Below, piece after piece: positions 3,268 through 25,266 of a stretch of 25,266 nucleotides of DNA. Source of the stretch: a virus; the IMG/VR virus record IMGVR_UViG_3300022752_000361, positions 1-25,266 of that record. One strand, given 5' to 3'. The position numbers were made by a program, and so were the translations under genes. Every line of letters starts with the position of its first letter. Positions within the stretch are counted from its first letter, which is position 1. The notes beneath the pieces are model-generated. The model was not told the origin of the DNA. It searched no databases and worked only from the letters and a program-made list of their open reading frames with translations.

Positions 3268-4050
3268 TTGTCGTCAGATCTTAAAGTTTTAGTAGAATGC
3301 GATCACAAAGTTACTGATGAGCGCATGTATCTTGATGCTGCTGACTATAAGACTATAAGATTTTCGTATCCTATTGCTAACAATAATGTGTCCGTAAGAG
3401 TCAATGGTTACTTGATAGACCCATTACACAAGTTATACGGTTTTGCTTCTAAAGATGCACAGGGTAAGTCTGTTATAAATCTTTACCCAGATGAACTTTC
3501 GGTAGAGCCTAAGAAGAAAAAATTAGTTTTTAATAGAGTATTAGGCTTAGATGATCTTATTGAGCTATCTTACACATCTCCTTTGGGCTATTGCCGCAAG
3601 TGTTTTGGTACATCATTAGTTTATGATTATCAAGTGAAGGCTAATGGATCAGGGTATTCAGAAGTTACAGGAATTTCAAAATTAAGACAAGACTGCCTAA
3701 AAGCCATTTTAACTTCTCGCGGGAGTAATGTTTTCCATAGTTGGGTAGGTACAACAGTAGACGCATTAGTCGGAAACAAGTTGAGGGCTTCTGATCTTTT
3801 TGATATACAGCAAGATATTGGAAATTCATTGAATAACTTAAAAAGGCTACAAATAAACCAATCTTCTTATCAGAAAGTATCAAACGAAGAGCTTTTACAG
3901 TCTATTGACAGCGTGCTAGTATCGCGAGACGAATACGACCCTACGTTAATTTTAATAAATGTTCAGGTAACAAGCGCTTCTGGTCAAGAGGTAGCAATAT
4001 CTCAAGCGTTTAAGTCAACGGGAACAATATCAGGTCTACTCAATGCTTAA
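3268..4050 (+). CDS. Baseplate wedge protein, gp25/W-like, with N-terminal extension
   Basis: Likely a baseplate wedge component of a contractile tail, in the family of T4 gp25 and P2 W. Residues about 136-245 follow the family plan: a helix (LRQDCLKAILTSRGSN), then FHSWVGT, which resembles the conserved 'h..fG..l' region, then helices, and finally paired strands around VLVSRDEYDPTLILINVQVT. Family members are commonly near 110-150 aa, so about 130 residues at the N-terminus are extra. That extension holds a VNG-type beta module (VSVRVNGYLIDPLHKLYGF) and a CRKC pair at Cys109/Cys112. The start is a TTG at 3268 with AGTAGG about eleven bases upstream; no ATG lies near. The last eight bases overlap the J-like gene. 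The gp25 call rests on pattern and on its place directly before J. Confidence 0.75.
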   Translation: MSSDLKVLVECDHKVTDERMYLDAADYKTIRFSYPIANNNVSVRVNGYLIDPLHKLYGFASKDAQGKSVINLYPDELSVEPKKKKLVFNRVLGLDDLIELSYTSPLGYCRKCFGTSLVYDYQVKANGSGYSEVTGISKLRQDCLKAILTSRGSNVFHSWVGTTVDALVGNKLRASDLFDIQQDIGNSLNNLKRLQINQSSYQKVSNEELLQSIDSVLVSRDEYDPTLILINVQVTSASGQEVAISQAFKSTGTISGLLNA

Positions 4051-7000
4051 TCTATCCATTTCAAAAAAGTACGATTTTACTTCAGTAGACTTTTCAACAA
4101 ACCAAAGCTCTGTATTTCTAGAAGGAACATTTTCTGGTCACCAAAGCGGTGTTCATTTGACATATGAGCATTATCTTTTAGATAAATTTCAAATTGAAAG
4201 ATTGGTTGGACAAGGAACCGTAAGTAGTGTAAGTGTCGCTAGCGGAACGTGGGCTTTAGGGCCTTTAGATCTTGAGATAGGTTTAAACAGAGTAAAATTA
4301 AATCTTACTGATACAACTACGCTAGAGTCATCCACTGCTTCTTGCAGTATTACCTATATTTCCGAAAAGGAACTAGGTATTCAAGTTGACCCTCCTACTG
4401 GAGTAAGAACAGAGCAATTTACTGATAAAGTAGTTGTTAAGTGGCTTAATAATAGCTCTGTTAGTTACTTAGAGAAGTCTATTACTTTTCAAAGCAGTCC
4501 AGTTACCGAGCCGTCTACCTCAGTAGGTTCTGGAATTTTGTACTCTGTATCTGGCGGTAAACACACTCCAGCATATGAATACTTTAACAGCAATCAAGTT
4601 CGGGCATCTTTAGTAGATAGAAAATTTTATAATAAAAAATTAATACCTGTAGGCAATGCCGTGTCCACGAGAGTGTGGGATTTAGGCTGGACTCCAGTTG
4701 ACGGCTCTGGGCTAAACAGACCGACCAACGATTTTTCAAAGATACAAATATCTGGGACCAGTTCTTCCGGGGCTACCATAAGCGGAAGCTACATAATTTT
4801 CCCAAGCGCACTTGGTACTGGTAGCGAAATTTTTGCTACCTATTTTTACAATGAGCCTACTTATGATTCCTACACGGTAAAGGTAGAAGAGCCAGGCTTG
4901 TCTACTTACGGCAGATACTCTGTAAGTAATCAAAGTGGGAAGGTATTTTCTCATGCTCAGCTAAATTCAGATTTAACTTCTGTAGCTTCCATTTCTTGGT
5001 CCCCTAGCGTTCTATGGGTATCAGGAATATCTGATTTAGTAAGTAAATTTGCCCCGCCAGAGAGGGTTACTCTAAGCTTTATAAATGAAACTGATTATAC
5101 AGTGTCATCAGATAAGGGGTTAGCAGGGACAAAAGGAACCGGCGTAACAGGGAGAACTTTCCATACGCCAACCATTAGCTTTACCATTGCAGACACTGGC
5201 CTTTACGCCTCTGGGGACACCGTAGTATTTGATGTTATAAGCAGTCCTAAAATGACTGTAGGAACGGATTTTGTTTATGGAATTCCTGGAATAAAGTTTC
5301 AGGTCCTAAATACGGCTGGATGCGCTAAAGAAGATACTGCAGTTATTAAAGTATACTCCTACGAGCCGCCAGTTAGCACAATTCCTAAAAAAGTTTCAGG
5401 ACAAGAAGTAGTTCTATCGGATAGCGGCTCTGTAAATTTGGATACACTTCAGTTAACTTCTACACATGAAAGCCCTTTTGATCGTGTTGTTTATATTAGG
5501 GATGTTGACTATGTTGTTGTTAACTCAGAAGACATAAATTTACCAACTTTATTATACAGAACAAGCATTAGCTCAATACCGGAAAATACAGAAATTTATG
5601 TAAACTTTCAAGTCACTCAATCTGAATCAAGTATTAAAGGTTACAATATATACGCTTCAACAGAGCCAGCCGGTGGCTTAGGCGGGTATTCTCAGTTAAA
5701 CGATAAAATTATTAATGTTCCTACCTCTCGCAGAGAGGTAGTTACGTCACAGTCATCTTCTCAATCAGTAGTTAATGGGACAAGGGTAACTACCCTTACC
5801 GAAAAGCTCATAAGCTTGAATGAGTTTAGCTATACTATTGGACGTGAGATTTTAGCAGACTTGCCACAGAGGGTAAATTCTGATTTAACTACGTATTTTG
5901 TTGTCACAGCCGTAGCTACGGACACCAAAAAAAGAAAAGAGATTGAAAGTGTTTTTTCAACTGAATTAGTTGCAAAACCATTAGAAGTCACAAGCCAGAT
6001 TCAAGAGTTTTCACCTAGGACATTTGATGAAATTGTATCCGATTATATTAAAAATGCCTTAGTTTCTCAGCCATTACTTGACGTAAAGCCTACATCAGTT
6101 ACGAGAGATATACATATAGACCCTGTAGCTAACGAGATTGAAAAATCTTATTTAATGCTTGATTTTTTGAATAAATCTCAATCTTTTTTGACCCTTCTAG
6201 CTATTGACGACCCAGATAACACAGGTTCAAGCGTTCTTGATACAGAATACAAGTCCTCTTTACAGGTAGTATTTGGTTTAGATTCTTTAGAAGAAGTACA
6301 GGCTCTAGTAGATTCTCAGTTTGACAAACTTGCCTCAAATGTAAATGTTTCTAGAAATCCAGCAGAGCAATCTCGTGGGGTAGTCACACTATATAGTGTT
6401 AATCTTCCCTCTTCTAGCCTTACAGTTACTCCTAATACAGTTTTTACCGCAAATCTTGACTCTGGAGCGGTTAACTTCAAGAGCCTATCTAGTATTGTAA
6501 TTGATCCAGAAGAGTTTAGTTCCTACTTAAATAGAGAAACTGGGAGATATGAAATACCAATACCTGTAATTGCAGAGAAAAGTGGTACATCTGGGAATGT
6601 AGATGCAGGTTCTGTTTCACTTACAAACATTACTAATTTTCTAGTGACAAATTTGACCCCAATGGTATACGGTTCGGATCAAGAATCAAATCGATCTTTA
6701 GCTGAGCGATCCCTTAATGCCTTAATGGGAGTAGATTTTGGCACAATAGGTGGTTACATAAAGGAAGTCATCAGTCACCCAGGAGTTATAAAGGTAGCAT
6801 CTCAGGGTGCCGGTGATAGGTTTATGGTTAGAGATTACGACTTCTTCCGGAAAAGTAACTTAGGCGGTAAAGTTGACCTATACATACAAGGCAATCGCCC
6901 ACTTACCTACCAAGAAGAGTTTGGTATCAATTTTATACGTGTTGAGGATGAAAGAGTTACGGATTTTGAACCTGGTTCTCTTACATTTGAGCTAGATTAT

Positions 7001-8326
7001 AAAGTAGAAAACTTAGAAAAAGTCGTTGTCTTAAGGACTGGATCTAGGCAAGAGTATGCTCTAGAAGGCGCTCTTCTTACGGGAAGAAAGATAATTTTAT
7101 CACCAACAAACTTAAAGAATACTAAAATAGGCTTGTATTCAGGTGATGTTATTTTAGTAACATATTATTATGCCAGCGACTTTTCTTACCAATTAAAGCA
7201 TTCACCAGTATTGTCTATTGAGTCTGTAGACCGTCCTACCGGCAGGCTAGGAAATGAAAACTACAGATTAGATTTATCTGAGGACATACTTCGTAAAGGC
7301 AGTTCGTCTCAGTCACCAAGCTCGGTTAGGCTTATCGAAAGCAGCGGTGTGAACTTTAGTGCAGGGGTATTTGAAGAGACAGCTACACTTAATGGAACAG
7401 TTCCGTACCCATTATTGCAATACTCGATTGATCTTTCTAAACTAATTGTCTCTGGCACTTCTGGAGTATACACTTTAGGGCGTGACTTTGATATTATAGA
7501 TAAAGGGTCAAACAGTACAAAAACTACTATAGCAAGAAAAATAGGAACACGTATTGCCGATGGTGAATCCGTATCTATATCATATGTTGCTAGCGAAACT
7601 TTTATAATAAGATATACTGTAGATAATCTTATAGAATCAATTCAAACTGATTTAGAGAAAAAGGAATACGCAACCGCAGATGTTTTAGTAAAAAGAGCAA
7701 ACGTAGTCCCTATAGACATTTCTGCTGAAGTCCTTATCAATAGAGGAACCAGCCAGTCTGAGGTTGATTTAAAGATAAGAACTGCTTTAGGTAATCACTT
7801 TTCTAACTTAAGGCTAGGGGATAGCGTTTACCAATCTGATATTATTAGGATAATAGATTCAGTAGACGGAGTGTATGCTGTAACTACGCCCATAGTAAAG
7901 CTTTCCAGAGCCTATAACTCATATGTAGTAGGTGACGAGATAAAGTTGACAGGACCCAGAAGAGAAGGTTCATCACTCGTGTACAGGTTTGATAATACGT
8001 TAAGCTTTGATACAATTAACGGCGGCGGTATACTTGATTTATATACTATAAGACCCGTCGGCATGTACATAAATTCTCGTTACTTTAAAGGGGTTTCTTC
8101 TTTAAATGAAGTATTCAGTTTAAAAAATTGTTGCTACATAACAAAGAGTTACATATATATAAGCAGTCTTAGCGAATCTGATTTAGCAGAAATTTCAAAG
8201 TCAGACTCAAAGATTATTGCAAATTATTTTTCATATGAAGATAAAGGCGTTTATGATGTAAAAATTAATGCCTTTGAGTATCCTAATCTAAATAATGCCT
8301 TATTTAGTTACCGAAATAGGCAATAA
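4043..8326 (+). CDS. Giant baseplate J-like protein with fibronectin-type segments
   Basis: Probably the baseplate wedge protein equivalent to P2 J and T4 gp6, which forms the ring that links wedges and triggers sheath contraction. The J-like core lies at about residues 665-1310. It includes a stretch around PNTVFTANLDSGAVNF followed by IPVIAEKSGTSGNVDAGS and GSDQESNRSLAERSL, the usual 'A...G...Nv..G' and 'Es...l..R' signatures. The usual C-terminal part reads VVPIDISAEVLINRG and later VYQSDIIRIIDSVDGVYAV. P2 J is about 300 aa; here there are 1427. The first 650 residues look like beta-sandwich domains, with fibronectin-type III features near 112-160 (PPTGVRTEQFTDKVVVKWLN) and 520-655 (GYNIYASTEP). 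A VNG-type module is inserted near 985-1060. The start ATG overlaps the W-like gene, with AGG eight bases upstream. A 9-bp perfect inverted repeat sits at 5721-5741. Confidence 0.85.
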   Translation: MLNLSISKKYDFTSVDFSTNQSSVFLEGTFSGHQSGVHLTYEHYLLDKFQIERLVGQGTVSSVSVASGTWALGPLDLEIGLNRVKLNLTDTTTLESSTASCSITYISEKELGIQVDPPTGVRTEQFTDKVVVKWLNNSSVSYLEKSITFQSSPVTEPSTSVGSGILYSVSGGKHTPAYEYFNSNQVRASLVDRKFYNKKLIPVGNAVSTRVWDLGWTPVDGSGLNRPTNDFSKIQISGTSSSGATISGSYIIFPSALGTGSEIFATYFYNEPTYDSYTVKVEEPGLSTYGRYSVSNQSGKVFSHAQLNSDLTSVASISWSPSVLWVSGISDLVSKFAPPERVTLSFINETDYTVSSDKGLAGTKGTGVTGRTFHTPTISFTIADTGLYASGDTVVFDVISSPKMTVGTDFVYGIPGIKFQVLNTAGCAKEDTAVIKVYSYEPPVSTIPKKVSGQEVVLSDSGSVNLDTLQLTSTHESPFDRVVYIRDVDYVVVNSEDINLPTLLYRTSISSIPENTEIYVNFQVTQSESSIKGYNIYASTEPAGGLGGYSQLNDKIINVPTSRREVVTSQSSSQSVVNGTRVTTLTEKLISLNEFSYTIGREILADLPQRVNSDLTTYFVVTAVATDTKKRKEIESVFSTELVAKPLEVTSQIQEFSPRTFDEIVSDYIKNALVSQPLLDVKPTSVTRDIHIDPVANEIEKSYLMLDFLNKSQSFLTLLAIDDPDNTGSSVLDTEYKSSLQVVFGLDSLEEVQALVDSQFDKLASNVNVSRNPAEQSRGVVTLYSVNLPSSSLTVTPNTVFTANLDSGAVNFKSLSSIVIDPEEFSSYLNRETGRYEIPIPVIAEKSGTSGNVDAGSVSLTNITNFLVTNLTPMVYGSDQESNRSLAERSLNALMGVDFGTIGGYIKEVISHPGVIKVASQGAGDRFMVRDYDFFRKSNLGGKVDLYIQGNRPLTYQEEFGINFIRVEDERVTDFEPGSLTFELDYKVENLEKVVVLRTGSRQEYALEGALLTGRKIILSPTNLKNTKIGLYSGDVILVTYYYASDFSYQLKHSPVLSIESVDRPTGRLGNENYRLDLSEDILRKGSSSQSPSSVRLIESSGVNFSAGVFEETATLNGTVPYPLLQYSIDLSKLIVSGTSGVYTLGRDFDIIDKGSNSTKTTIARKIGTRIADGESVSISYVASETFIIRYTVDNLIESIQTDLEKKEYATADVLVKRANVVPIDISAEVLINRGTSQSEVDLKIRTALGNHFSNLRLGDSVYQSDIIRIIDSVDGVYAVTTPIVKLSRAYNSYVVGDEIKLTGPRREGSSLVYRFDNTLSFDTINGGGILDLYTIRPVGMYINSRYFKGVSSLNEVFSLKNCCYITKSYIYISSLSESDLAEISKSDSKIIANYFSYEDKGVYDVKINAFEYPNLNNALFSYRNRQ
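5721..5741. repeat. Perfect inverted repeat inside the J-like gene (9-bp arms)
   Basis: The arms CTACCTCTC (5721-5729) and GAGAGGTAG (5733-5741) are exact reverse complements with a three-base loop (GCA). This is the tightest hairpin I saw in the window. It lies within the second fibronectin-type segment, and no T-run follows. Confidence 0.55.
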
Positions 8327-11734: not shown

Positions 11735-14700
11735 ATGTCCACAGATTTCGGAAACGGCCTAGAGTTTCAAGTTGATAGAGAACTTCTAGCAGAAAATACT
11801 TCACTCGACTCGGTAGTCTTTCAGAAGAGAAAGCCTCCGCTTGCCGAAGAGTTTAACTTTTTTCAAGATTTGCAATCCTTACATAGAAGGAATGCTCTAA
11901 GATCACAGCTACAGAGCGGTATACTTGATTTTACGCTAGGCGGACAGTTAGCAGATGTTTTACCGACTAGAAGCTCTGTAATACCAAGCCTAGCTGCCCC
12001 TAATCAATTTGCAGTACAGAATTTTAGAGCATTAGTCGATGGGATGATTGTCGATGTAGTGGCTTCTAGGGTAAACGGAGCCTCTATTTCTTCTGGGCCG
12101 TTATCGGATAAATTTAATGTAATAAAACTCACTAATCCACCAGAAGACGGACAGGCGAGAGTAGATTTAGTATTCTTAGAAGTATGGAGAGCTCCTCTTG
12201 GGTCCTCCCCTAATTCTGTAAACAAGCCTAGCTCTACGACAATCTACAAGCACGGGAATAGGCAATATGCTGGGGCCAACCTCTCTGATCAGATTGTTGA
12301 TCCGGCTTTTGGAATTGAGACGTCAAAGAGGATTCAGGTACAGTATCAAATTAGAATTGTAGAAGGCGTGACACTAGACGGATATTTGAGTGCCTCACCC
12401 GAGGGCAATCCTGATGGCATATCTCAGGGCAGCAAGGTAAAAGCCAGAGCAGGTGCAGTCAGTGGTGCGGATACTACATACACGTTCTCCTCTCAGTGGT
12501 CAGCTACCGGCGATGCCGGTCTTTACAGAGCAGGTGACGGCAGTACTGCAGCTAAGCAGGCCCTCAAATCTTATGATGGGTACTCATACGCAATACCACT
12601 ATTTGCAGTTTGCAGAAGAACAAAGGACGTCATTAATGGCTATACTAAATCTTTGCCTAATTCTGGCAGCACTTCTATTGAGGATAATGTATCTTCAGAT
12701 AGGCCAGACGGATTATTCTTTGACGAGGTAGCCTCAAAGGACATTATTGATTTAAGGCATAAAGTACTTGTCAATAATCCAGACTTTTCTAATCTTCTGA
12801 GAAAGAACTTTAGAAAGCTTTGCGCGGGAACCCTTCGTACTAAATTAGGTGCTACTGATAATGGCGGTTTAGTCAAGGGCGTTGAGCTGATGGACGTTGA
12901 CACGATTGGTAACCCATCAGACACTACAACCAGCGTGGCGGTACCAGACGGATTTAGAAGAGTATTCTCAAACGAACAAGTACAACAAGACCTAGTAGGC
13001 TCTGTCACCTATAACGGAAGCACTCAAGCTTCTGGGGTAGTTCATTTCTATCCAACTTCCGGTCCTCTTGGTTCTGATAAAAAGATTCTTGTAGACTCCA
13101 ATAATTTAGATGCCGTGGTTGTATTTGATGAAACTGATAAAGAAACTTGGCCAACTGTACTTGTAAATGGCTCTCCTTTAGTGCTAAATGACGAAGTTGG
13201 CGATGATGGTTGGCAGTATGAGACTGGTACTTTATCTAAGGCGTATGTAATTCTTACATTAACAGATCAAGGTTTAATTCCGCCAAATGCTACAATTGAA
13301 GTACAGTTTACCACTAGATATCCTGGAGAAGGTTTAAGATTTGTTCCTTCTGACTTACATACCGTACAAAATGTAAATCCAGACTTAGTTAGTGACTTTC
13401 CTAGCACTTATGCATTTACATTAAACAATACTAACAGGAATGTTGACCTAAATCAGTACATTAAACTAGCAAGACCTTCCGATCCAGAGACAGATCATGC
13501 TGGCGACACAATTTCTGACGTTGTTACAGATTTCCCTGTAACCGGGGATTCTCTGAAAGGCGCTACTAGAGTAAGGTCTTACTTTGTAAATGGGACTTCA
13601 AATCTAAGCTACACAATACCAAATTCCATAGACGGACAGAGAGTTCTAGGTGTAATTAAGATTGCTGAAACAGCAGACAGTGGTGTGTCATTTTCTGAGT
13701 TAGATATGTCTAACAACCTATCTGCAGTAAATAAAGGCGTTAACCCTACAGATGACTGGACAGTTACTTTAAGCCTTCCTGTTGGGCAGACATCCTTTGT
13801 CGGTTGGGTACTTAGATTTGATTTAGTCCTTGCTAACATCTCAGCTTCTGTAAGCACGCTTTCTCGTGGCGTTCTTGAATTCGCAAAGGACGACTTACTT
13901 CTTATATCTTCTGTAGCAGACGGTAATACTACACAGCTATTTACTTCATTGAATAATGAGCTTATTCTAGCTCTACCAAAATATGTCTCACCTAATGGGA
14001 CAGAATACACTTACGGGTTTGTCAATGGTTTAATGCGGCGAGTTGAGCTAACAGGGGATAATGATGGTGTCATAGCTGGTATAGGCACAAATAAACTGTA
14101 CGTACAGTTTGCTGGTACAATAAATCAGTTTGATAAATTAGAAGTTGCTGTATTGAGTACAGCAACTCCAACAGCAGATGATTTAATCGACATTACCTAT
14201 ACATACCGTCCTTACCAAGGCTACGGCTCAGTTATACCATTAGGTGATTGCGAGATTATGGCAATTAATCCAGGCCTTGTTCATACTTTAGGAACAGGTC
14301 TAGCAGAGCCGCAAGCTGACCCTTCAATCGTAGGCGTGGCGCAGAATTTGCCACTACCAGGCAACGCTTCGGAGGCTATTCTTCTTGCAGACAGGTTCTC
14401 TTTGGCCTCTGATGCTACAAGCCTAAGGTCGCCTTCTGACTTCCCTAGCCCTTTGTATACTTCTGTTGAATGTGATTTAGCTAATAAATTTGATACCGCT
14501 TCATACTCTGGATCGCTTCCAAAAGTTGGTGATATTTTAAAAATTAGCGATCTTTCATCAGGTACATTGAATCCAGAAAGGGGGATAGTGGATAAAAGAT
14601 TGTCAATCTCGCTGAACGGCGAAGATGTTTCACATATTCTTGAGTTTACTACCCCATACTTGAGCGTTAAAGTAGTCCATCAAGTTGTTTGGTCAGCATT

Positions 14701-14857
14701 AGTACTTCATCCGAGCACAGGAGAGTTATTACTTGTTGTTCTAGTTAAGATGGTGGGTGCTAGCACATTTGGGAACGTTAGATCTGTTGGTGATCCTAGC
14801 TCAACAGTAGCATTCGATGTTTTTAGATTAAGCAATCGGCCACTAATTACAGTTTAG
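11735..14857 (+). CDS. Large tail protein, 1040 aa, fibre- or baseplate-associated
   Basis: Probably a virion protein at the tail tip. The N-terminus (residues 30-50, RKPPLAEEFNFFQDLQ) resembles the start of phage tail proteins that attach to the baseplate, and of the next gene's product. Around residues 320-345 is RPDGLFFDEV followed by DIIDLRHKV, a pattern I associate with large phage tail proteins. Residues 60-240 are mostly beta strand. A VNG-type module lies near residue 470 (WPTVLVNGSPLVLNDE) and others near 610 and 755 (NGTEYTYGFVNGLMRR). The C-terminal 130 residues form a separate domain ending FRLSNRPLITV. There is no signal peptide, membrane span or enzyme motif. GAGTGAGAA precedes the ATG. 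The receptor or partner cannot be read from the sequence. A 6-bp stem with a 3-base loop lies at 12506-12520. Confidence 0.75.
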   Translation: MSTDFGNGLEFQVDRELLAENTSLDSVVFQKRKPPLAEEFNFFQDLQSLHRRNALRSQLQSGILDFTLGGQLADVLPTRSSVIPSLAAPNQFAVQNFRALVDGMIVDVVASRVNGASISSGPLSDKFNVIKLTNPPEDGQARVDLVFLEVWRAPLGSSPNSVNKPSSTTIYKHGNRQYAGANLSDQIVDPAFGIETSKRIQVQYQIRIVEGVTLDGYLSASPEGNPDGISQGSKVKARAGAVSGADTTYTFSSQWSATGDAGLYRAGDGSTAAKQALKSYDGYSYAIPLFAVCRRTKDVINGYTKSLPNSGSTSIEDNVSSDRPDGLFFDEVASKDIIDLRHKVLVNNPDFSNLLRKNFRKLCAGTLRTKLGATDNGGLVKGVELMDVDTIGNPSDTTTSVAVPDGFRRVFSNEQVQQDLVGSVTYNGSTQASGVVHFYPTSGPLGSDKKILVDSNNLDAVVVFDETDKETWPTVLVNGSPLVLNDEVGDDGWQYETGTLSKAYVILTLTDQGLIPPNATIEVQFTTRYPGEGLRFVPSDLHTVQNVNPDLVSDFPSTYAFTLNNTNRNVDLNQYIKLARPSDPETDHAGDTISDVVTDFPVTGDSLKGATRVRSYFVNGTSNLSYTIPNSIDGQRVLGVIKIAETADSGVSFSELDMSNNLSAVNKGVNPTDDWTVTLSLPVGQTSFVGWVLRFDLVLANISASVSTLSRGVLEFAKDDLLLISSVADGNTTQLFTSLNNELILALPKYVSPNGTEYTYGFVNGLMRRVELTGDNDGVIAGIGTNKLYVQFAGTINQFDKLEVAVLSTATPTADDLIDITYTYRPYQGYGSVIPLGDCEIMAINPGLVHTLGTGLAEPQADPSIVGVAQNLPLPGNASEAILLADRFSLASDATSLRSPSDFPSPLYTSVECDLANKFDTASYSGSLPKVGDILKISDLSSGTLNPERGIVDKRLSISLNGEDVSHILEFTTPYLSVKVVHQVVWSALVLHPSTGELLLVVLVKMVGASTFGNVRSVGDPSSTVAFDVFRLSNRPLITV

Positions 14858-14866
14858 GCATAGCTA

Positions 14867-17800
14867 ATGAATAATATCAGCAGAGAATCTTTCGATCCAA
14901 AAAAGAATTACGAAAAGCTCCTATTCTCACAGCAAAGAGCGGTTATAGACTTTGAGCTTAATGAGCTACAAGATAGACTAAGTTATAATCAGTATCTAAG
15001 CAATAGAGTTAACTTTGGCGACGGTCCAGTAGGTGACGCATTCTTGGTTGAGCCTGTTGTCGGGGAAAATAAAATCTCCGTTAGGCCAGGTTCGTTAATA
15101 CATAAAGGTAAAATTATCTCTCTCCACGAGTCTTACTCTGTTGAACTTTCTGTTCCAGCAAGCAATAGAGAAGATATCGTTTACTTAGAATGGTGGCTAG
15201 AGGAGGTAGATTCCGACTCCGATCCTGATTTAAAACTTACACCCAGTACCCCAGAGACAGCTACAAGGTTAAAGATATTTATTCAAGTTAATGTAGCTGA
15301 AGGCGGTACAATTGGATCTTTATCAAGCGGGCATAGCTCGTTTGTGCTAGCGATGCTGTCTAGGGAATCCGGTGACACAGAAGTTTCTCCTTCTGACGTT
15401 ACCGATCTAAGGCTAAAGACTTCTTCTACTTATATAGAAAAAGGCGGATTTGTCATCAATCTTGGGTCAGGCTCATTTAGAATAGAGCCCACAAGCGGAA
15501 AGATAAACGGTCAAGACTTTAGCTTATCTAATTTAAATGAAACCTTAGTAGATGATTTAGTATACTTCATCTATGTAGATTCAGATACAAATGACTGGGC
15601 TATCACCAACTCAGAACCTACCTCAGTATCAGCTATGGTGGCAAAAGTCCAGAAAGATATTGACGGTAACGTAGTCGTCCTTGAAGACTTACGGCTTTTT
15701 TGCCCAACAGCATCTTCTGGCGGTGGAGCTAGGTCCCAAGAAGGGGGACGTATATCGATTGATTTACTATCGGCTTCATCAATCCCGGCATTTAGTCCCG
15801 TAGCAGTAGATAGCGACGGAAGAGCGGTACCCGCAAATAGCGCTATTTCCTCTAGGGTTCCTGTCGTAGGTGTATCGTTAAATCAAGTATCTTCTGGGGA
15901 ATTTGTTAGAGTTGTTGTACTTGGTACAATAACTAATAGAGATTGGTCTTTGACTCAGTCCTCTAATGTTTATCTAAACGGCACGTCTGTTTCTTCTGAT
16001 GCACCTACTACAGAAGGAGAATTTCTTCAGAAATTAGGATACGCCTTATCAGATACTTCATTACTTGTATCACCAGAGCTACAGGCCGAAGTAATTACTT
16101 CTGTTCCATCCGAAAAAGCTTTAGCTAGCCATTTCTCATCTATAGGTGTTATTCCTGAAGGCCGCGTAGTAGCCCTTACCGACACTCAGAGGGTAGTAAA
16201 ATTAGCTACATCAGAGGATGTAAACTCCCATCATCCGATTGGGGTAACAAAAGGACCACTTTTAGGAAGTTCAGGTGGTCCAGTTGTTACATTTGGTGAG
16301 ATTACAAATTCTAGCTGGAACTGGACAGTAGGAAGCCCTGTTTATTTATCATCTTCTGAGGGGAATTTAGTACAAAAACCTATTAATCAGCCTTTGACAA
16401 AAGGTGTAGCTTCCCCTATTAGGCTAGAGAGAAGAATTATATCAGGTATTCCATCTGATACAGATTTTATTATTCCTTCCACTTGGTCTGGCAGGAATGA
16501 ATTAGTATTTGAAGATGGCTTAGTACGAGTTAGGGACACAGACTACTTAAGAATAACTGTAGGTTCTACAGGTATTATCAGATTTAACTATTCAGTAAAC
16601 TCTGATGTAGAAGTAAATGCGGTCTTTTCTTTAGAGGATGGCGGTCTTTCTTTAGCGTATACATTAGAATCTGCAAGTCTTGTAGATCCTAGAATCTTTC
16701 AAGTTCCTCCAGGTGCTGGTAAAAACCAATTAGTATGGATAAATGGGATAGCTCTAAGATATGGCGCTCAGTATACTAGAACTGATGATATTATTACATT
16801 AAAGCCAGACGTAGTAGTAGCTCCAGATCGTCCAGTAGTAGCAGCATTTTCTACAGTAGAAAATGCAATGATGGATATCGTTAGGCTTCCTGGGCCTTTT
16901 CTTGACCCATTGGTAGCAGAGTCCGAAGAAAGATGGATAGCTATTCTCCCAGAAGTATCCGGAAGAAGTTATTTACTTTTCGTTGACGGTATTCTTTTAG
17001 AGCCCGGTGATTATATTGACCCAGAGGAAGAACCTAGGGACTACTTATCTAATCCAGATCAAAGAGTTATTACATTAAATATAACTATTGATCCAAATGA
17101 TCCGCCAATTCTCTCAATCGCCTACTCATCTGAACAGTTTATTGAGTCTGGAACTGTACTTTACGGGTATTCCAGTGTTCCAGAAAAAGCAGACTGCATA
17201 AATGTTGACGGCTCCAATCAAGGGACAAAATTTATTCTACCTTTAGGGGCTAATAGTAATGTAATCCCTTACGTAGATGGTTTAGCAAAAGAATTAGGAG
17301 CTTCTGCAGACCCATATGCAGGGGACTTCCATATAGATACAATTAACTACACTGATTCTATTTCCTTATATCAAGTTACGTTTAATTATGCGGTAGATGC
17401 AGATTCAGTCGCTCTATCTTACGGTGTTCGCGGTGGTGGAATGTCTTCCCCTTCTGGAACTGATGTGCAGAATTTAGCGCAAGCTCTCTTTAGCTTTAGC
17501 GATGGGTCTACAATTCCAGAAAGCAGTTGGGTGTGGCTTAACGGAAGAGCGCAAGAATTAGGCGTGGATTATGAAATTTTAGCAGCTACAAAGCAAATTC
17601 ATTTTCTTAAAGAGATATCTGAGTCTGAAACCTATAGCGTAAGGGTTTCATTCCCGTTAAACGATGAGAAAATGACAAATTTAGAGTCAGTCTTACCGTC
17701 ATCCTCTGATAATAAATCGTATTTCTTACCTGCTAGACTAAACACTGGCAAGGCTACCACTGTATCTCTAGACGGCTTAACTTTAACTTTCGGAAAGGAC

Positions 17801-20800
17801 TATTACAGGTCTTCAAACTCTGCATACTTTACCGTAAAAGACGGCCTAGTATCGCCAAACTTTGCAGAAATTTCAGAACAACCAATTGCTGTTTGGCAGC
17901 TAGACGACAATGCTAATAGTACCGTTGTAGCAGAATTAAGCGGAACCCACGACGGGCAAACAATAGATAACACATCAGACATTTCAAATACATCAGGATT
18001 AGTAAATAGATCTTTCACCGTAAATGGAAATCCAGACTCAGGAATTTTAGTTGAGTCTCTCTCTGGGGTAGATTTATCTACATTTTCAATTTGGTTTAAA
18101 CCAAATGTTGCCGTAACTTCTTCGTCCTCAGAAACAGTCCTTCTTTATGATAATAATGTTTCGTTCCTTAGCTTGGGTTCTGCAGTAGGATCGCTTTCTG
18201 GGGAAATTATTTCTCTAAAAAATACCTCAAATGGAAAAGCAACGGCAGTCTTAGCTGAAGGGGACAATGTTTCTACATTAGCCGCTGGAGTTTGGCACCA
18301 CATTTTACTGAGATATAATTCTACTGAGTATGAGATTTGGGTAAACGGTGTAAAACAAGAGACTACTGCTTCCCCGTCAGGTAATGTACCTCTTATTTCG
18401 CTATCATCGTCTGTAAGATTTGCAAGCTCAACCCTAGACAAAGCAGTTGACGGTAAAGTAGATGAAATTGCACTCTGGTCCTCCTCTGTTTCTACAGCAG
18501 ATGTGGTTAAGTTGTATAATAATAGAAATGGTGTTCATTTCTTTAGTCCAGTATCTGACGAAGTTATATTAAGAAGGCCAGACCTTTACACTACGAAACC
18601 TTCTGTTGCACTAATACGTGGTGATGGTACTTACTCTACCATTAACGTCCTAAACAGATCTGGATATGTAGACGTCGTACAAGACCCAGCAGATTTAGCG
18701 GCAGACTTTGCCTATTTAAGCGCACAAAACTATGATGTTTATGTGTTTGACTATAGCTCCAGTGCTTTATCGGAGTCAAATAGCGATTTAGCTTATGATC
18801 TATGGCAAGCTGGTCATCACGTTATTACTTTAAGTAGGTTCACTACAGATGATACCTATCCAGTCACAGCTATTTCTACCGTCGTAGGCTCATTGGACTC
18901 TGAGCCTGCATCTTTTCACGTAATAACTGATGATTTACGCGACGTAGTTGATATTGGCGGCGGTATTTCAGGAGGAAATACCGTAACTGCGTATCGTTCA
19001 GGGTTTATCCCAGTTTACCGGCTTGTAAGCAACACCAGTAAGATAACCGGGCTTATTGGGGAAAGCCCTTCTGGTGGAATCTGGCTACACGATTGCACAG
19101 GAGGCTTGGGTAGAAACTCTACCGGTATGCATTTACTACTTAATGCGATTACCTATATGTATGGTAGAGACTTGCTAAGGCTTCCGGTTCTTGCGGCAAC
19201 GTCCTTAGAAAACACTCTTTCCGGTGTCACTCAATTATACAACTATAAAGTAGGCTACGCACTTGCTCCTGACACCTTATTCGTTAATATGGAGCCAGAG
19301 TTCTCTTCCATGGTCAGCTTTGGCGGGATGGCAGACTTTGTGGCCTTGACTAGCATAGAGGGTTCAAACAATCAATTCTTTGCCCTTCCTGCAGGCGCTG
19401 GATTTTCGGAAATAATTGCAGTTGATGGAATAATACAACGACCACAGCTTGATTATGTCAGAGAAGCAGACGTAGTGAAGTTCGTCTCTGAGCAAACTGG
19501 AGTTGTATCTGCTTCCGTTTCAGTTGGCGGCAAGGGAATGTCAACGCCGCAAGTCCTAGTAAACAACTCCGGTACCTATTTACTTCCTGCATACATCGAT
19601 TCAAGTAAAAAAGTTTGGATCATTTATGACGGGTTTATTTTAGTAGAAAACGTTCATTACGTTATAACCGAACTTCAGGTCTCTCTGCTTGGTGGGCTCA
19701 GTAGCCCTACCGTAATGATGTTCTCGTATTCATTGACAGAAGAAGATATGTCTGAGTTTGAGATACTCCCCCAGACAACAGATCCTCTGGTGTATAATTT
19801 ACCTGCAAATGCTGGTGATCACTTAGTAGTTACAAAGGGATTAGTCGCTAAAAAAGTCTTACTTCTTGGTGTAGACTATGATAAGTCTGCTGGTAACACA
19901 TCAATTGTATTGACGACTTTACCCAGTCCCGCTGAATCTGTTGCAGTATCTTATTCCAGAAGAGCAATACAGCAACTTCTCCCTGTACCGGACCCAACAT
20001 CATCTAACGCAGATAGCTACTGGAGAGACCCGGTAGAGCTAGAAGAGAATTTACCATCTACAGGCAATGATATTGGCGATGTAAGGCTTGTATTTTCTGA
20101 CAAATCTTTATATACTTATACAGGTTCAGATTGGGTAAAATTATACGGTGACGGAATAGAAATTTCTGGTCTAACAGTAACCAGTGGTCTATTAGTAGGG
20201 GACAGCGCTGACATTCTTGGCAATCTAACGATTAGTGGAGACTTGGTTGTTTCCGGTTCTGTATTTGCAGATATAGGTAGCTCTTTAGATTTAAATGCCC
20301 CTCTTTCTCTTGGCTCTACGTTAAATGTATCAGGTGACACAGTACTTGAAAGCACACTTCAGGTTAGCGGCTCCGCTACGTTCTTTAGCGGGGTTTCAAT
20401 TTCAGGTTCCACAACTGTAAGCGGTCTAAATGTTCTTGGTGATGTAGATATTGTAGGAAATACTACAATTACTGGAAATCTTTCAGTTAGCGGCACGCTT
20501 TCATCTACAACCATAGATGATATTACTTCAGATGTTAGTGCCAATACTCTAAGATTAGACAGTATTGACGTAATTCTTGAGACTGAAAGTACAACTATAT
20601 TCTCTGACAACTCGTTAGTCTATGCAGATGCCAGACCAGGTATTCAAGACCCAGATTACAGAGAAGGTTGGTACTTTAAAAATGCAGGCCCAGTAGGCTC
20701 TTCACAAAATAAAATTAATTGGTACTTTGACGGCAGCCCTACACCTATCACCCTATCTGACTTTAGTGCTTATGCGATCATTACTTTTGATTCTATCGTC

Positions 20801-21538
20801 AGCGTTCCTCATCTTGCAGTGTATACTGTCCCGCAAGGTGCAGGAGATGCCGCTTTCTGGTATCGCTCTAAGGTAGTCTACCTTCCAGATGCCGGATATG
20901 TGGCTGGCGTAAAGTACCTCATGTACTTTGGCGAGGACCCACAGATAAGACCAGACCTTCCTAGACTCACGATGTCAGTCTCTCAGGCTGCAGGACCACA
21001 AGCGGGTTCAGAAATTGTACAATTTGCTTCAATAGGGTCAGATTCCGCCACTGCCATAGGAAATTGTGAATTTGTAGCCGAAGCAATTGGTTCTTTCTCA
21101 ACTTCATTCAAGAGAACTACATATCTTCGTATCAAGAAAGCTGCGCTAACAGATTTAGACACTAGACAGACGCTATCGTTTTTATTGACTGATGCCTTAA
21201 CTTCTGGTACTAAAAAATCAGCAGTTCAAGTTCCTATATCATTTATACCGGAGAAAGTTATTATTCGATCCGATAGTGCAGCAGATTTAGACATTATTAT
21301 TGATATTAATAAGGTTGACTCCAGTGGCACATCAACTTCACTATTTACACAATTACCAGGAAACGATAAAAGGCCTGTACTTCCAGCTGGAGACATTTAT
21401 GCAGAAATTACTGATTGCTTTTCCGGTTCTACGGTTTCCGATTCTTGTGTCCTCATTCTTGACTTAGACCAGATAGGCACTTCCGGAAATGAGGGTGGAA
21501 ACTTCTTGTACTTAACAATTGTTGGAACAAGGGTCTAG
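14867..21538 (+). CDS. Giant tail-fibre-like protein with LamG-like and ThuA/GATase-like domains
   Basis: At 2223 aa this is the largest product here. Residues 1-200 begin FDPKKNYEKLLFSQQ, then ELNELQ at 30-35, like phage tail proteins of the DUF4815 type; this part likely anchors to the baseplate. Residues about 525-1000 hold six loose copies of a 60-75 residue beta module ('lP...... v.vdG....lg.dY ... v.y'). Residues about 1000-1220 form a LamG/concanavalin-like domain (IAVWQLDDNANST, FSIWFKPN, AGVWHHILLRYNS, KVDEIALWS), a fold that often binds sugars. Residues about 1243-1440 look like a ThuA or glutamine-amidotransferase-like fold (YDVYVFDYSSS, AGHHVITLSR, HLLLNAITYMYG). Three more modules follow at 1495-1700. 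A Ser/Gly/Val-rich repetitive stalk spans about 1765-1880, and a 300-residue C-terminal tip ends LYLTIVGTRV. Probably a host-recognition fibre; the ligand is unknown. AGG stands eight bases before the ATG. Confidence 0.85.
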   Translation: MNNISRESFDPKKNYEKLLFSQQRAVIDFELNELQDRLSYNQYLSNRVNFGDGPVGDAFLVEPVVGENKISVRPGSLIHKGKIISLHESYSVELSVPASNREDIVYLEWWLEEVDSDSDPDLKLTPSTPETATRLKIFIQVNVAEGGTIGSLSSGHSSFVLAMLSRESGDTEVSPSDVTDLRLKTSSTYIEKGGFVINLGSGSFRIEPTSGKINGQDFSLSNLNETLVDDLVYFIYVDSDTNDWAITNSEPTSVSAMVAKVQKDIDGNVVVLEDLRLFCPTASSGGGARSQEGGRISIDLLSASSIPAFSPVAVDSDGRAVPANSAISSRVPVVGVSLNQVSSGEFVRVVVLGTITNRDWSLTQSSNVYLNGTSVSSDAPTTEGEFLQKLGYALSDTSLLVSPELQAEVITSVPSEKALASHFSSIGVIPEGRVVALTDTQRVVKLATSEDVNSHHPIGVTKGPLLGSSGGPVVTFGEITNSSWNWTVGSPVYLSSSEGNLVQKPINQPLTKGVASPIRLERRIISGIPSDTDFIIPSTWSGRNELVFEDGLVRVRDTDYLRITVGSTGIIRFNYSVNSDVEVNAVFSLEDGGLSLAYTLESASLVDPRIFQVPPGAGKNQLVWINGIALRYGAQYTRTDDIITLKPDVVVAPDRPVVAAFSTVENAMMDIVRLPGPFLDPLVAESEERWIAILPEVSGRSYLLFVDGILLEPGDYIDPEEEPRDYLSNPDQRVITLNITIDPNDPPILSIAYSSEQFIESGTVLYGYSSVPEKADCINVDGSNQGTKFILPLGANSNVIPYVDGLAKELGASADPYAGDFHIDTINYTDSISLYQVTFNYAVDADSVALSYGVRGGGMSSPSGTDVQNLAQALFSFSDGSTIPESSWVWLNGRAQELGVDYEILAATKQIHFLKEISESETYSVRVSFPLNDEKMTNLESVLPSSSDNKSYFLPARLNTGKATTVSLDGLTLTFGKDYYRSSNSAYFTVKDGLVSPNFAEISEQPIAVWQLDDNANSTVVAELSGTHDGQTIDNTSDISNTSGLVNRSFTVNGNPDSGILVESLSGVDLSTFSIWFKPNVAVTSSSSETVLLYDNNVSFLSLGSAVGSLSGEIISLKNTSNGKATAVLAEGDNVSTLAAGVWHHILLRYNSTEYEIWVNGVKQETTASPSGNVPLISLSSSVRFASSTLDKAVDGKVDEIALWSSSVSTADVVKLYNNRNGVHFFSPVSDEVILRRPDLYTTKPSVALIRGDGTYSTINVLNRSGYVDVVQDPADLAADFAYLSAQNYDVYVFDYSSSALSESNSDLAYDLWQAGHHVITLSRFTTDDTYPVTAISTVVGSLDSEPASFHVITDDLRDVVDIGGGISGGNTVTAYRSGFIPVYRLVSNTSKITGLIGESPSGGIWLHDCTGGLGRNSTGMHLLLNAITYMYGRDLLRLPVLAATSLENTLSGVTQLYNYKVGYALAPDTLFVNMEPEFSSMVSFGGMADFVALTSIEGSNNQFFALPAGAGFSEIIAVDGIIQRPQLDYVREADVVKFVSEQTGVVSASVSVGGKGMSTPQVLVNNSGTYLLPAYIDSSKKVWIIYDGFILVENVHYVITELQVSLLGGLSSPTVMMFSYSLTEEDMSEFEILPQTTDPLVYNLPANAGDHLVVTKGLVAKKVLLLGVDYDKSAGNTSIVLTTLPSPAESVAVSYSRRAIQQLLPVPDPTSSNADSYWRDPVELEENLPSTGNDIGDVRLVFSDKSLYTYTGSDWVKLYGDGIEISGLTVTSGLLVGDSADILGNLTISGDLVVSGSVFADIGSSLDLNAPLSLGSTLNVSGDTVLESTLQVSGSATFFSGVSISGSTTVSGLNVLGDVDIVGNTTITGNLSVSGTLSSTTIDDITSDVSANTLRLDSIDVILETESTTIFSDNSLVYADARPGIQDPDYREGWYFKNAGPVGSSQNKINWYFDGSPTPITLSDFSAYAIITFDSIVSVPHLAVYTVPQGAGDAAFWYRSKVVYLPDAGYVAGVKYLMYFGEDPQIRPDLPRLTMSVSQAAGPQAGSEIVQFASIGSDSATAIGNCEFVAEAIGSFSTSFKRTTYLRIKKAALTDLDTRQTLSFLLTDALTSGTKKSAVQVPISFIPEKVIIRSDSAADLDIIIDINKVDSSGTSTSLFTQLPGNDKRPVLPAGDIYAEITDCFSGSTVSDSCVLILDLDQIGTSGNEGGNFLYLTIVGTRV
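16440..17850 (+). repeat. Protein-level array of six VNG/VDG beta modules, first block
   Basis: Six diverged copies of one module are encoded in a row, each about 180-220 bases. Each starts with a strand pair near '(F/Y)..LP.G', passes a 'v(D/N)G' turn followed by 'lg.DY', and ends with a strand before 'v.y'. Examples are LVWINGIALRYGAQY, LLFVDGILLEPGDY, VIPYVDGLAKELGA and WVWLNGRAQELGVDY. The copies are too diverged to show as DNA repeats. The unit borders are approximate. Confidence 0.6.
19350..19965 (+). repeat. Protein-level array of three VDG beta modules, second block
   Basis: Three further copies of the module from 16440-17850 appear here: FALPAGAGFSEIIAVDG, YLLPAYIDSSKKVWIIYDG and YNLPANAGDHLVVTKG. 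They are separated from the first six by the LamG-like and amidotransferase-like domains. It looks as if those two domains were inserted into a once continuous array, or as if the array grew on both sides of them. Confidence 0.55.
20160..20510 (+). repeat. Repetitive beta-rich stalk of the tail fibre
   Basis: Short repeats of about 8-12 residues with alternating Val/Leu/Ile, Ser and Gly are encoded here, for example LNVSGDTVLESTLQVSGSAT and VDIVGNTTITGNLSVSG. Such patterns are typical of trimeric fibre stalks built from intertwined beta strands. No sequence-identical DNA repeat is involved. Confidence 0.6.
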
Positions 21539-21545
21539 TTATTTT

Positions 21546-21860
21546 ATGGATGATATTGAATATATGCATCCAGACGAAGACGAAAATGAAGTAAAATCAA
21601 AAAAATACCCCAAAGACTTAAACAATAGAGAAGTAGTTGAAGACCTATTCGCTATTTTAAATGAAATCTCTCAATCAAATAGCGTTAGAGAGCTTCATCT
21701 AGAGACAAAGAAGAACTTCAATAAAACTATTTTTCAAATAGGCGGGACTCTTTTTGTTGCAGGTTTGATTTGGCTAATTAGTAGTGTTGTTTCTTTAAAT
21801 CTTCAAGTTCACGATCTTCAATACAAAGTTCAAATTCTTCAGGAATTACTAAAAAAATGA
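21546..21860 (+). CDS. Small single-span membrane protein with C-terminal coiled coil
   Basis: The protein has 104 aa from the ATG at 21546. The first half is very acidic (MDDIEYMHPDEDENEV), then basic. One hydrophobic span of about 20 residues follows (IGGTLFVAGLIWLISSVVSL). The end is a heptad-like helix (LQVHDLQYKVQILQELLKK). A TTG at 21519 would add nine residues and overlap the fibre gene. I prefer the ATG because it avoids the overlap and because the TTG has no ribosome site close by. No family is recognised. The layout, a soluble helix, one span and a short coiled coil, recalls small phage lysis accessory proteins such as XhlA in general plan only. It could also be a membrane partner of the kinase encoded two genes on. 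Its stop overlaps the receiver start (ATGA), so the two are probably co-translated. Confidence 0.7.
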   Translation: MDDIEYMHPDEDENEVKSKKYPKDLNNREVVEDLFAILNEISQSNSVRELHLETKKNFNKTIFQIGGTLFVAGLIWLISSVVSLNLQVHDLQYKVQILQELLKK

Positions 21861-22231
21861 AGAAGCTACTTATAGTTGACGACAACACTAGCGTAACTCT
21901 AGTTTTAAGCCGTATATTCTCTGTCAAGTTTCCGAACATAGAAGTTTTTTGCTTTAATAAAAAATCAGCCGGTATTGAAGCATTAAATTGGTTACAGGCT
22001 AATAAACCAGATTATGCAATACTTGACCTTGTTATTAATGGAGTAAATGGTAACAATCTTTATGACGCAATGATCTCAAAGGGGTACGATACAAAAATTG
22101 TATTTTTAACTGGTTGCTCTGATTCTGATTCTAAGTTTCAAAAGTTTAAAAAATCATACCCAAGTCTTCCAATTCTAAGAAAAGTCGCCTCTGTTACTAG
22201 CATTCTAGATTCATTAGGTTTAAATGAGTGA
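21857..22231 (+). CDS. Stand-alone response regulator receiver domain (CheY/Spo0F type)
   Basis: A 124-aa receiver domain that fills the whole protein. All expected residues are present: the acidic pair Asp8-Asp9 in LLIVDDN, the phosphate-accepting Asp57 in YAILDLVING, Thr85 in IVFLTG, and Lys109 in PILRKV. The alternating strand/helix order is that of the family. There is no DNA-binding or enzymatic output domain, so it should pass its phosphate on or act by binding another protein, as CheY and Spo0F do. The ATG overlaps the upstream stop by four bases, and its own end overlaps the kinase start by eight (ATGAGTGA). This strongly suggests that receiver and kinase work as a pair. In a phage structural region this is unusual; its target cannot be read from the sequence. 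Confidence 0.93.
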   Translation: MKKLLIVDDNTSVTLVLSRIFSVKFPNIEVFCFNKKSAGIEALNWLQANKPDYAILDLVINGVNGNNLYDAMISKGYDTKIVFLTGCSDSDSKFQKFKKSYPSLPILRKVASVTSILDSLGLNE

Positions 22232-23258
22232 CTTATCTCTTATACCTATTGAAGTAAATTATTTTACGCAAGATTTAAAAAAAGTCGTACTTCATCAGGG
22301 TGAGTCGTTTGTACCTAGTCCCTTTATGTGCGAGGGGATAAAAATTGGAATATGTTTTGACCTTCCAGAGCAAAGTGATAATGTTAATTTTGTCACTAAT
22401 TGCATAGCCAGGAAAGTATTACTTACCGGAAAGCAAGTAGAGTCTGTACAGACTTATATAGACCCACTTACCGGCATTAAAAGAATTTTCAAGAGGATAG
22501 GCATCCCTGCCCCATTGGGTGGCTGCTTTGAGCTTAGGTATGAAATAAATACTGAGGTCTTAAGCAACAAGTTTAATTTTGATTCAAATATGCAAGACAA
22601 CTTTCGATTAATTGCTGCAGGAATAAACCATGAACTTCGTAGCCCCCTTCAGGCCATTTCAATGTATGCAGACATAATTGAAGAAGGAGTAGGGGACGTA
22701 ACAGAAGTAGCCTCTTTTGTAAAGGAAGAGATTAAATCTATAACCGGAATTTTAGATACTTTAGGGAGATTTAATAGCAATCAAAAGAATAATTTAGAGT
22801 ATGACAGTTTAGATAAAATTATAAAAACAACTTGGGATACCGTATCTCTTACGATGGTCCCATCATGTCATAGTTTAGATGTAAAGTTTAAAGTCCAGAG
22901 AGGCTTTAGTAAAATTGTACCTAATATACCTAAATCAGAACTACAGCAGGTACTTACGAATATATTTAGAAATTCTATCGAGTCTTTGGATAAAGAAAAG
23001 AGTTTAATTGAGGTAAAATTAGCCCATAAAACTGATAAATTCTTTTCATTTTATATCCGAGACAACGGATGCGGAATACCTAAATCTAAGATAAAAAATA
23101 TCTTTACCCCTTTTGTCTCCTCAAAATCAGGAAGCCAAGGATTGGGGTTGACGATATGTAGGTATTTTATATCACAGAGAGGTGGGACTATTATGGTTCT
23201 GTCTGAAGAAGGAAAGTCTACAGACGTTATTATTTCTTTACCTATAAAATGTGATTAA
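22224..23258 (+). CDS. Soluble sensor histidine kinase
   Basis: A 344-aa kinase with a full catalytic core. The H-box is INHELRSPLQAI with His136, in a dimerisation helix pair at about 120-190. The N-box is LTNIFRNSIESL with Asn250. The G1 box is RDNGCGIP (Asp280, Gly282, Gly284), the F-box is IFTPF, and the G2 box is GSQGLGLTICR. The expected reaction is ATP-dependent phosphorylation of His136 and transfer to Asp57 of the receiver encoded just upstream. Residues 1-115 are the likely sensor. No membrane span is present, and the end of this region (FKRIGIPAPLGGCFELRYEI) faintly resembles the last strands of a PAS domain, so it may sense a soluble signal or bind a protein. The ATG lies within the 8-base overlap with the receiver gene, with AGG five bases upstream. 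Nothing essential is missing, so it should be active. Confidence 0.93.
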   Translation: MSDLSLIPIEVNYFTQDLKKVVLHQGESFVPSPFMCEGIKIGICFDLPEQSDNVNFVTNCIARKVLLTGKQVESVQTYIDPLTGIKRIFKRIGIPAPLGGCFELRYEINTEVLSNKFNFDSNMQDNFRLIAAGINHELRSPLQAISMYADIIEEGVGDVTEVASFVKEEIKSITGILDTLGRFNSNQKNNLEYDSLDKIIKTTWDTVSLTMVPSCHSLDVKFKVQRGFSKIVPNIPKSELQQVLTNIFRNSIESLDKEKSLIEVKLAHKTDKFFSFYIRDNGCGIPKSKIKNIFTPFVSSKSGSQGLGLTICRYFISQRGGTIMVLSEEGKSTDVIISLPIKCD

Positions 23259-24358: not shown

Positions 24359-25266
24359 ATGGAAAGCCAAGAAATTCCAGACGAGCAGCAGAGGTTCTTT
24401 GCCGCCGTCGAAAAATTGAAATCCAGCAGGGACTTCAGGCTCTTTGACTCGCCTTACCAAAGTCCTGACGTCACGCTACGGCCCTACCAGCATGTAGGAG
24501 TTGCATATATGTTGGCGGTACCGAGGGCCATACTCGGTGACCATACAGGCTTAGGTAAGACCGGTCAATCCATCTCAACCTTTATTCGTCTTCTTGAGAA
24601 GAATCCAAATCTCAAGTGCATTATCGTGACGATCAAAAGCTCCCTTTACCAGTGGGCTTCAGAGATTAGAAAGTTTACCCAAGGAATTAAAGCTTTTGCC
24701 TTGGATGCAGATTCTTTCGAAGATAGTGAAGGCAATCGTTACAAAAAGTCATCTAAAGAATCGCCAGCAGATTTTAGACAAAAAGCGTTTGATTTATTTA
24801 AACAGCAAGATGCGCACCTGATTATTACAGGGTATTCTATGCTTGTTTCTGAGAATCAAAATCTCATGGACATAGGGGATGAGTATATTGTTTTCTTTGA
24901 TGAATGTACTCAATTCAAGACGTGGAAACCTGAAATTAAATATCGAGATGAGAATAGGCTAAGGGCTCAGTCCGGTAAAAAAGCATATCTTTCAGTTTTC
25001 CAAGCCGCCTGTAATGTATCTGCGAGGGCGCAGAGGGCATATGGCCTTACCGCTACGCCAATCAAGAACAGGCTAGAAGAAGCATTTGCTTTGTACAAAG
25101 TAATTAAGCCAGAGCTTTTCCCTAATGTCACATGGTTTAGAAGCAATTTCTGTGTCTATAAAGAAATGATTATGAGAGGGAGAAGAATACCTCAACTTGT
25201 TCAATATAAGAACTTGGACAGATTTGCTGAATTAATTAAACCTTTTTACATAGGAAGGTCAAAGAG
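24359..25266 (+). CDS. SNF2-family helicase/ATPase, 3' end cut by window edge
   Basis: The frame runs from ATG at 24359 to the window edge, giving 302 residues. An in-frame TAG stands directly before the ATG and GGAG three bases before that, so the start is well set. Motifs of the SNF2/superfamily 2 ATPase core appear in order: Q-like LRPYQHVGVAYML (40-52), Walker A GDHTGLGKT (60-68, Lys67), motif Ia IIVTIKSSLYQWA, motif II FFDECT (Asp181-Glu182), and motif III YGLTATPIKN (228-237). Motif II is usually DEAH or a close variant in this family; here the last two residues are Cys-Thr. The second RecA-like lobe lies beyond the edge. Phage members are thought to act in replication, recombination or transcription; the role here is unknown. 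It stands apart from the structural genes by a 27-bp gap and probably begins a different functional block. Confidence 0.93.
   Translation, partial: MESQEIPDEQQRFFAAVEKLKSSRDFRLFDSPYQSPDVTLRPYQHVGVAYMLAVPRAILGDHTGLGKTGQSISTFIRLLEKNPNLKCIIVTIKSSLYQWASEIRKFTQGIKAFALDADSFEDSEGNRYKKSSKESPADFRQKAFDLFKQQDAHLIITGYSMLVSENQNLMDIGDEYIVFFDECTQFKTWKPEIKYRDENRLRAQSGKKAYLSVFQAACNVSARAQRAYGLTATPIKNRLEEAFALYKVIKPELFPNVTWFRSNFCVYKEMIMRGRRIPQLVQYKNLDRFAELIKPFYIGRSK

Follow-up and report, generated by a model that had tools for sequence, protein, structure and literature searches.

The window analysed here, an IMG/VR virus contig of 25,266 bases with a G+C content of 38%, carries a contractile-tail module that consists of baseplate proteins, a gp6/J-like wedge, a BW3TFN-family protein (assigned by PF25691), a 1040-aa structural protein and, downstream of the baseplate genes, a 2223-aa fibre (Table 1). 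Among annotated records, the wedge protein came closest to those of LR745208, an uncultured huge phage (29% identity), of Tunturiibacter phage Tunturi_5 and of Bacillus phage G, and several neighbours of the wedge gene also had homologues around the wedge in the nearest huge-phage records. An IMG/VR search with four aligned sequences of the 1040-aa protein gave 229 relatives, from which 79 related loci were kept, many of them on contigs of 100-480 kb. Because the wedge, the neighbouring genes and the 1040-aa protein match those phages, the contig is, judged by protein homology, the tail region of a relative of phage G and other huge phages.

Two further gene groups follow the fibre. Window 21857-23258, immediately behind the fibre gene, encodes a HisKA-HATPase histidine kinase (PF00512; PF02518, E 1.4e-20) together with a response regulator (PF00072, E 2.5e-10). 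The two genes overlap, share a strand and possibly form a complete phage-encoded two-component pair. The 79 related loci contained no match to either, and the GTDB matches of the kinase were weak (22-36%). The start of an SNF2-family helicase (PF00176, E 1.1e-21; window 24359-25264) is cut by the contig end. Since many related loci have relatives of the helicase (29 hits), its gene may regularly accompany this tail module.

Table 1. Features of the tail module and of the 2223-aa fibre, with positions in the 25,266-base window and residue numbers in the fibre protein.
Feature	Fibre residues	Window position	Strand	Basis
Baseplate wedge (gp6/J-like) protein, sets genomic context		4043..8326	+	phrog_6 E 1.2e-31
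1040-aa structural protein, fibre neighbour, conserved marker		11735..14857	+	Homologues in LR745208, Tunturi_5 and phage G, 27-33% identity
2223-aa tail-fibre protein holding the orphan block		14867..21538	+	Open frame; PHROG structural-family matches in N- and C-terminal parts
Fibre N-terminal attachment region	4-282	14876..15712	+	DUF4815-like start (PF16075), phrog_877
Beta repeats R1-R5, ~70 aa each	526-939	16442..17683	+	Home-made repeat HMM
Repeat R6, shortened	946-998	17702..17860	+	hmmsearch, HMM built without R6, domain E 1.2e-4
LamG / concanavalin A-like lectin domain	1004-1222	17876..18532	+	PF13385, phrog_3545
Orphan alpha/beta block (putative fold)	1240-1440	18584..19186	+	Motifs, AF2 element order, weak profile signal
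Strand-helix-strand unit	1279-1322	18701..18832	+	hhalign local, 43 columns, P 0.0098
C1410, sole cysteine of the block (LHDCTGG)	1410	19094..19096	+	Residue listing, motif scan
Beta repeats R7-R9	1497-1706	19355..19984	+	Repeat HMM
Fibre C-terminal domain	1902-2115	20570..21211	+	tblastn, common to Vibrio and Synechococcus phage proteins

The N-terminal region of the fibre matched PF16075 at E 0.01, below the cut-off, and phrog_877 at 6.5e-7, and it aligned over 287 columns with the fibre of L007, the most closely related contig, at 31% identity. The upstream neighbour, the 1040-aa protein, has a look-alike N-terminus. An N-x-x-Q/L-D/Q stretch occurs in both N-termini, as does a D-x-V-x-L-E-x-W motif, and the two are perhaps paralogous baseplate-attachment regions. 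Much of the fibre (window 16442-19984) is made up of eight to nine degenerate beta repeats with the pattern xLPAxxG..vxVDGxxxxxxxDY. Eight repeats of ~70 aa (R1-R5 and R7-R9) each gave a domain E of 5.4e-21 or better with an HMM that was built from those same eight, R6 being left out. R6 covers repeat positions 3-53 of 71 and ends where the LamG domain starts. The idea that a LamG-plus-block cassette splits R6, with its last strand resuming after 1458, was dropped because many joins scored equally when the repeat was rejoined in silico. No repeat copies were found when the repeat HMM was run against the related loci. At the other end of the protein, the C-terminal domain was 39% identical to Vibrio phage 249E41-1 and 27-34% identical to other Vibrio and Synechococcus phages (tblastn), with 27-32% for several of the Synechococcus phages, and residues 1888-2005 were 59-60% identical to contig L002; the domain, found in otherwise unrelated phages, is possibly a horizontally shared fibre/virion domain. 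The fibre family is modular, since the L007 fibre has the N-terminus in common, but neither LamG nor the orphan block was found in it.

In the preliminary description of this DNA, a LamG-like domain had been placed beside the segment studied here, and this was confirmed. The PF13385 core (residues 1072-1213) scored 39.2 bits (E 9.8e-10) against a curated cut-off of 27.6, the region also matched phrog_3545 (1.1e-9), and by profile the identity of this domain is certain. The orphan block sits directly after LamG, with ~70-aa fibre repeats on either side. The four motifs by which the block had originally been recognised, within residues ~1243-1440, are all present and in frame in the open 2223-aa reading frame, namely YDVYVFDY at 1289, AGHHVITLSR at 1315, LHDCTGG at 1407 and HLLLNAITYMYG at 1422; the start given at that time, 18595, is 2 bases off codon phase, which is immaterial. 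The block contains five histidines and one cysteine in 200 residues, its G+C content of 0.434 is little different from that of the flanks, and its mean Chou-Fasman helix propensity (0.945) was the lowest among the fibre segments compared.

Searches of Pfam, PHROGs, NCBIfam and PDB chain sequences gave nothing credible for the block, and hits to Peptidase_C25_C (E 0.028), NAD synthase (0.15) and phrog_34508 (0.12) were judged to be chance. No relative was found in the 50,697 phage genomes of INPHARED, nor in IMG/VR when scanned with exact domain peptides or with the bait alignments A2 and A3, which held extra rows invented solely to loosen the search patterns; these rows are not evidence. IMG/VR scans with the fibre, the baseplate protein and the neighbour gene gave no relative of the block either, and it was not seen in the 79 related loci or in the whole huge-phage records. 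A BLAST match to contig L034 (E 0.2) was dropped; the protein concerned is repetitive and looks like a beta-helix. An exact-peptide scan of GTDB (84,980 bacterial and archaeal genomes) was empty. A six-frame search of 395 Bacteroidota and 398 Pseudomonadota genomes, for which the entry genomes came from histidine-kinase GTDB matches, returned chance hits only, that is, short stretches in TolB-type repeats, a TonB-receptor-like protein and another family. The block is a sequence orphan at the search depth used. Since the IMG/VR and GTDB scans need exact short peptides and are estimated to miss relatives much below about 50% identity, orphan means here that none was found at this depth.

The block was modelled in two single-sequence AlphaFold runs with different boundaries. 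The pLDDT values were 38.6 and 37.7, a very low confidence at which the AF2 models give hints of secondary structure rather than folds. Both runs (pLDDT ~38) predicted one and the same element order: two strands, a helix, a strand, a second helix and another strand, followed by four or five strands and a closing helix. The first strands lie near VALIR and YVDVV and are followed by the helix PADLAADFAYLSA; the middle of the block has the strand DVYVF, the helix SDLAYDLWQA and a strand near HVITL; and the late part has strands near 1350, 1372-1389, 1393-1400 and 1405-1409 before the final helix HLLLNAITYMYG. Structure prediction, proposed earlier as the way to check the fold, gave alternating strands and helices with a C-terminal helix and not an all-beta arrangement, but at a pLDDT of ~38 and with nothing meaningful in a Foldseek search with the first model. 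The block is probably a separate alpha/beta domain inserted in a modular fibre.

The more specific proposal of a ThuA-like domain did not hold up. The Pfam ThuA model (PF06283) gave no match to the window at E<=10, whereas 5 of 14 control genomes did match, and a regex scan of the block was empty for the family motifs GGG[FV]VG[IV]H and HP, which were taken from fetched ThuA members. In an alignment, AGHHVITLSR and FHVITDD occupy the places that correspond to these motifs. A home-made profile was built with jackhmmer from secreted Bacteroidota amidotransferase-like domains, pulled in the ThuA family unaided and converged at 70 subsequences. When it was used as a full-length HMM, the block scored 1.7 bits and ranked 97th in a set of about 3,400 decoys, which equals chance. 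Because of this score and the missing Pfam match, ThuA membership is not supported. Two Bacteroidota frames, L180 (G005, 2218 aa) and L181 (G341, 3591 aa), have three or four tandem ThuA/amidotransferase-like domains, and several of these domains score below Pfam's ThuA cut-off. Tandem domains of this kind in secreted multi-domain Bacteroidota proteins mean that a donor pool exists, and the motif order in the block fits the idea that a genuine domain of the ThuA family or of the secreted amidotransferase-like type was captured from a bacterium and diverged past sequence recognition. Such a capture is nevertheless improbable, as the ThuA model had no match and the full HMM was at chance, no bacterial homologue turned up in the ~800 sampled genomes or the exact-peptide GTDB scan, and the G+C content of the block is near that of its flanks.

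When profiles were compared locally with hhalign, the unit from YDVYVF through AGHHVITL aligned with the ThuA/amidotransferase-like profile in the expected register. The block scored 21.3 (z 3.6 against shuffles), barely more than the best of 200 shuffles (20.9) and the best of 200 protein windows from related phages (21.2). A second set of 60 shuffles contained one that beat the block (22.8), giving overall 1 of 260 shuffles that did as well. Control alpha/beta profiles reached z values of 2.1 (short-chain dehydrogenase), 0.8 (receiver) and 0.4 (GldG), compared to 3.6. Allowing for the number of profiles tried, the signal is at about the 1-2% level and is suggestive. A competing register, in which DDLRDVVDIGGG is aligned to the family's LKDYVDQGGG, scored about equally against a sub-profile, and as the sub-profile prefers this other register, part of the hhalign signal may be accidental. 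In global mode, hhalign gave the block scores of 9.2-10.3, and the best shuffle reached 10.2. A forced global alignment showed strand 1, YDVYVF, the AGHHVITL strand, FHVITDDL and the LLLNAI helix in common order, with FHVITDDL falling on the family's HPv site.

A mostly beta fibre or adhesin domain of an ordinary, phage-specific kind, resembling amidotransferase folds by accident, would account for the failure of every sequence test at normal thresholds and for the low helix propensity of the block, and fibre domains evolve fast, with orphans being common. However, both AF2 runs placed three helices in alternation with strands, and the block had a higher local profile score than the other fibre segments in the comparison; an ordinary domain appears unlikely, with perhaps one chance in its favour for every three against. 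The initial reading of a Rossmann-type, glutamine-amidotransferase-like block falls short of the usual standard. It has weak support, all in one direction, in that the block is distinct, non-repeat and alternating in its AF2 order (pLDDT ~38) and its local unit beat 259 of 260 shuffles; the full-length profile score was at chance. An amidotransferase-like fold is plausible, and we regard its chances as about even.

A motif scan of residues 1240-1440 found neither GxCxG nor [AGS]xC[AHGKS][GA], the patterns of a Cys nucleophile elbow, and no HxE; SGNH blocks (GDS, GxND, DxxH) were also absent from the block. This agrees with the earlier remark that no certain catalytic triad is visible. C1410 lies on a late strand, away from the position of a nucleophile elbow after the fourth strand. 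A diverged enzyme that trims or deacylates the host surface polysaccharide would have to use an unfamiliar active site, such as H1408/D1409/C1410 with H1351 or H1422. The five histidines and one cysteine within 200 residues and the HDC at the end of a predicted strand could provide such a site, and SGNH deacetylases, with a central alpha/beta domain, are established in the middle of the phage fibres Possum gp66 and G7C gp63.1 (PMC9569702). Against this, neither the motifs GDS, GxND, DxxH and HxE nor a sensibly placed Cys/Ser elbow are present, the sole GxSxG match (GISGG at 1366) lies in a glycine loop, and there were no homologues in which the candidate residues could be compared. We give a diverged enzyme little credence; from its motifs, enzyme activity of the block is unlikely, and nothing supported the suggestion that it modifies sugars. 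The other suggestion made at the outset, that the block may be binding only, is the better reading because the Cys elbow and HxE are absent. With a certain LamG domain adjoining the block and the fibre surrounding it, a host-surface binding or accessory role is the simplest inference, and a non-catalytic role of this type is somewhat favoured over the alternatives.

We favour, with a probability of roughly 0.45, that the block is a non-catalytic amidotransferase-like domain (class I, flavodoxin-like) that is displayed together with LamG from the repeat shaft of the fibre. The fibre N-terminus would anchor the protein at the baseplate, the observed beta repeats would build the shaft, and LamG would bind a host-surface glycan. 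The predicted alpha/beta domain would then be a second ligand-binding or spacer module beside LamG. The original observation was right in substance and is partly confirmed, and its interpretation is partly supported. No account of ThuA/amidotransferase-like domains in phage tail fibres was found in the open PubMed Central literature. A further, more doubtful proposal is that the block represents a hitherto undescribed family of phage-fibre domains, in which a non-catalytic amidotransferase-like fold serves for receptor binding and is paired with LamG in a phage-G-type fibre. If the fold and the binding role are true, an unusual scaffold joins the small set of host-recognising alpha/beta fibre domains, and the comparison with the L007 fibre, without LamG and block, would show phage-G-type fibres diversifying through the uptake of domain cassettes. 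If the block is merely a diverged fibre domain, the finding is an ordinary one.

The baseplate, wedge and p11735-type genes have homologues in the tail modules of Bacillus phage G and LR745208 (23-35% identity), but compared to these phages and the 79 related IMG/VR loci the orphan block was found only here. The block and the ThuA (PF06283) or secreted Bacteroidota domains are alike in predicted element order and in one strand-helix-strand unit, with HxIT and LLLNAI at the expected places. In contrast to these domains, the block gave no significant model score, and at the aligned elbow it has L1322-S1323-R1324 without the GG-x-x-x-x-H pattern of ThuA. With the SGNH fibres Possum gp66 and G7C gp63.1, it shares the position of a non-repeat, mid-fibre domain beside receptor-binding parts, but it differs from them in lacking SGNH blocks and evidence for an enzyme. 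Both LamG domains and enzymatic domains in fibres have already been published. Laminin G3 lectin domains are known in jumbo-phage tail fibres (PMC7824862), and the present fibre, which carries PF13385 and belongs to a tail module of the jumbo-phage type, resembles these. The fibres covered in the searched text of that account have LamG and YHYH fused to concanavalin-like lectins, whereas here LamG is followed by an orphan, putative alpha/beta block.
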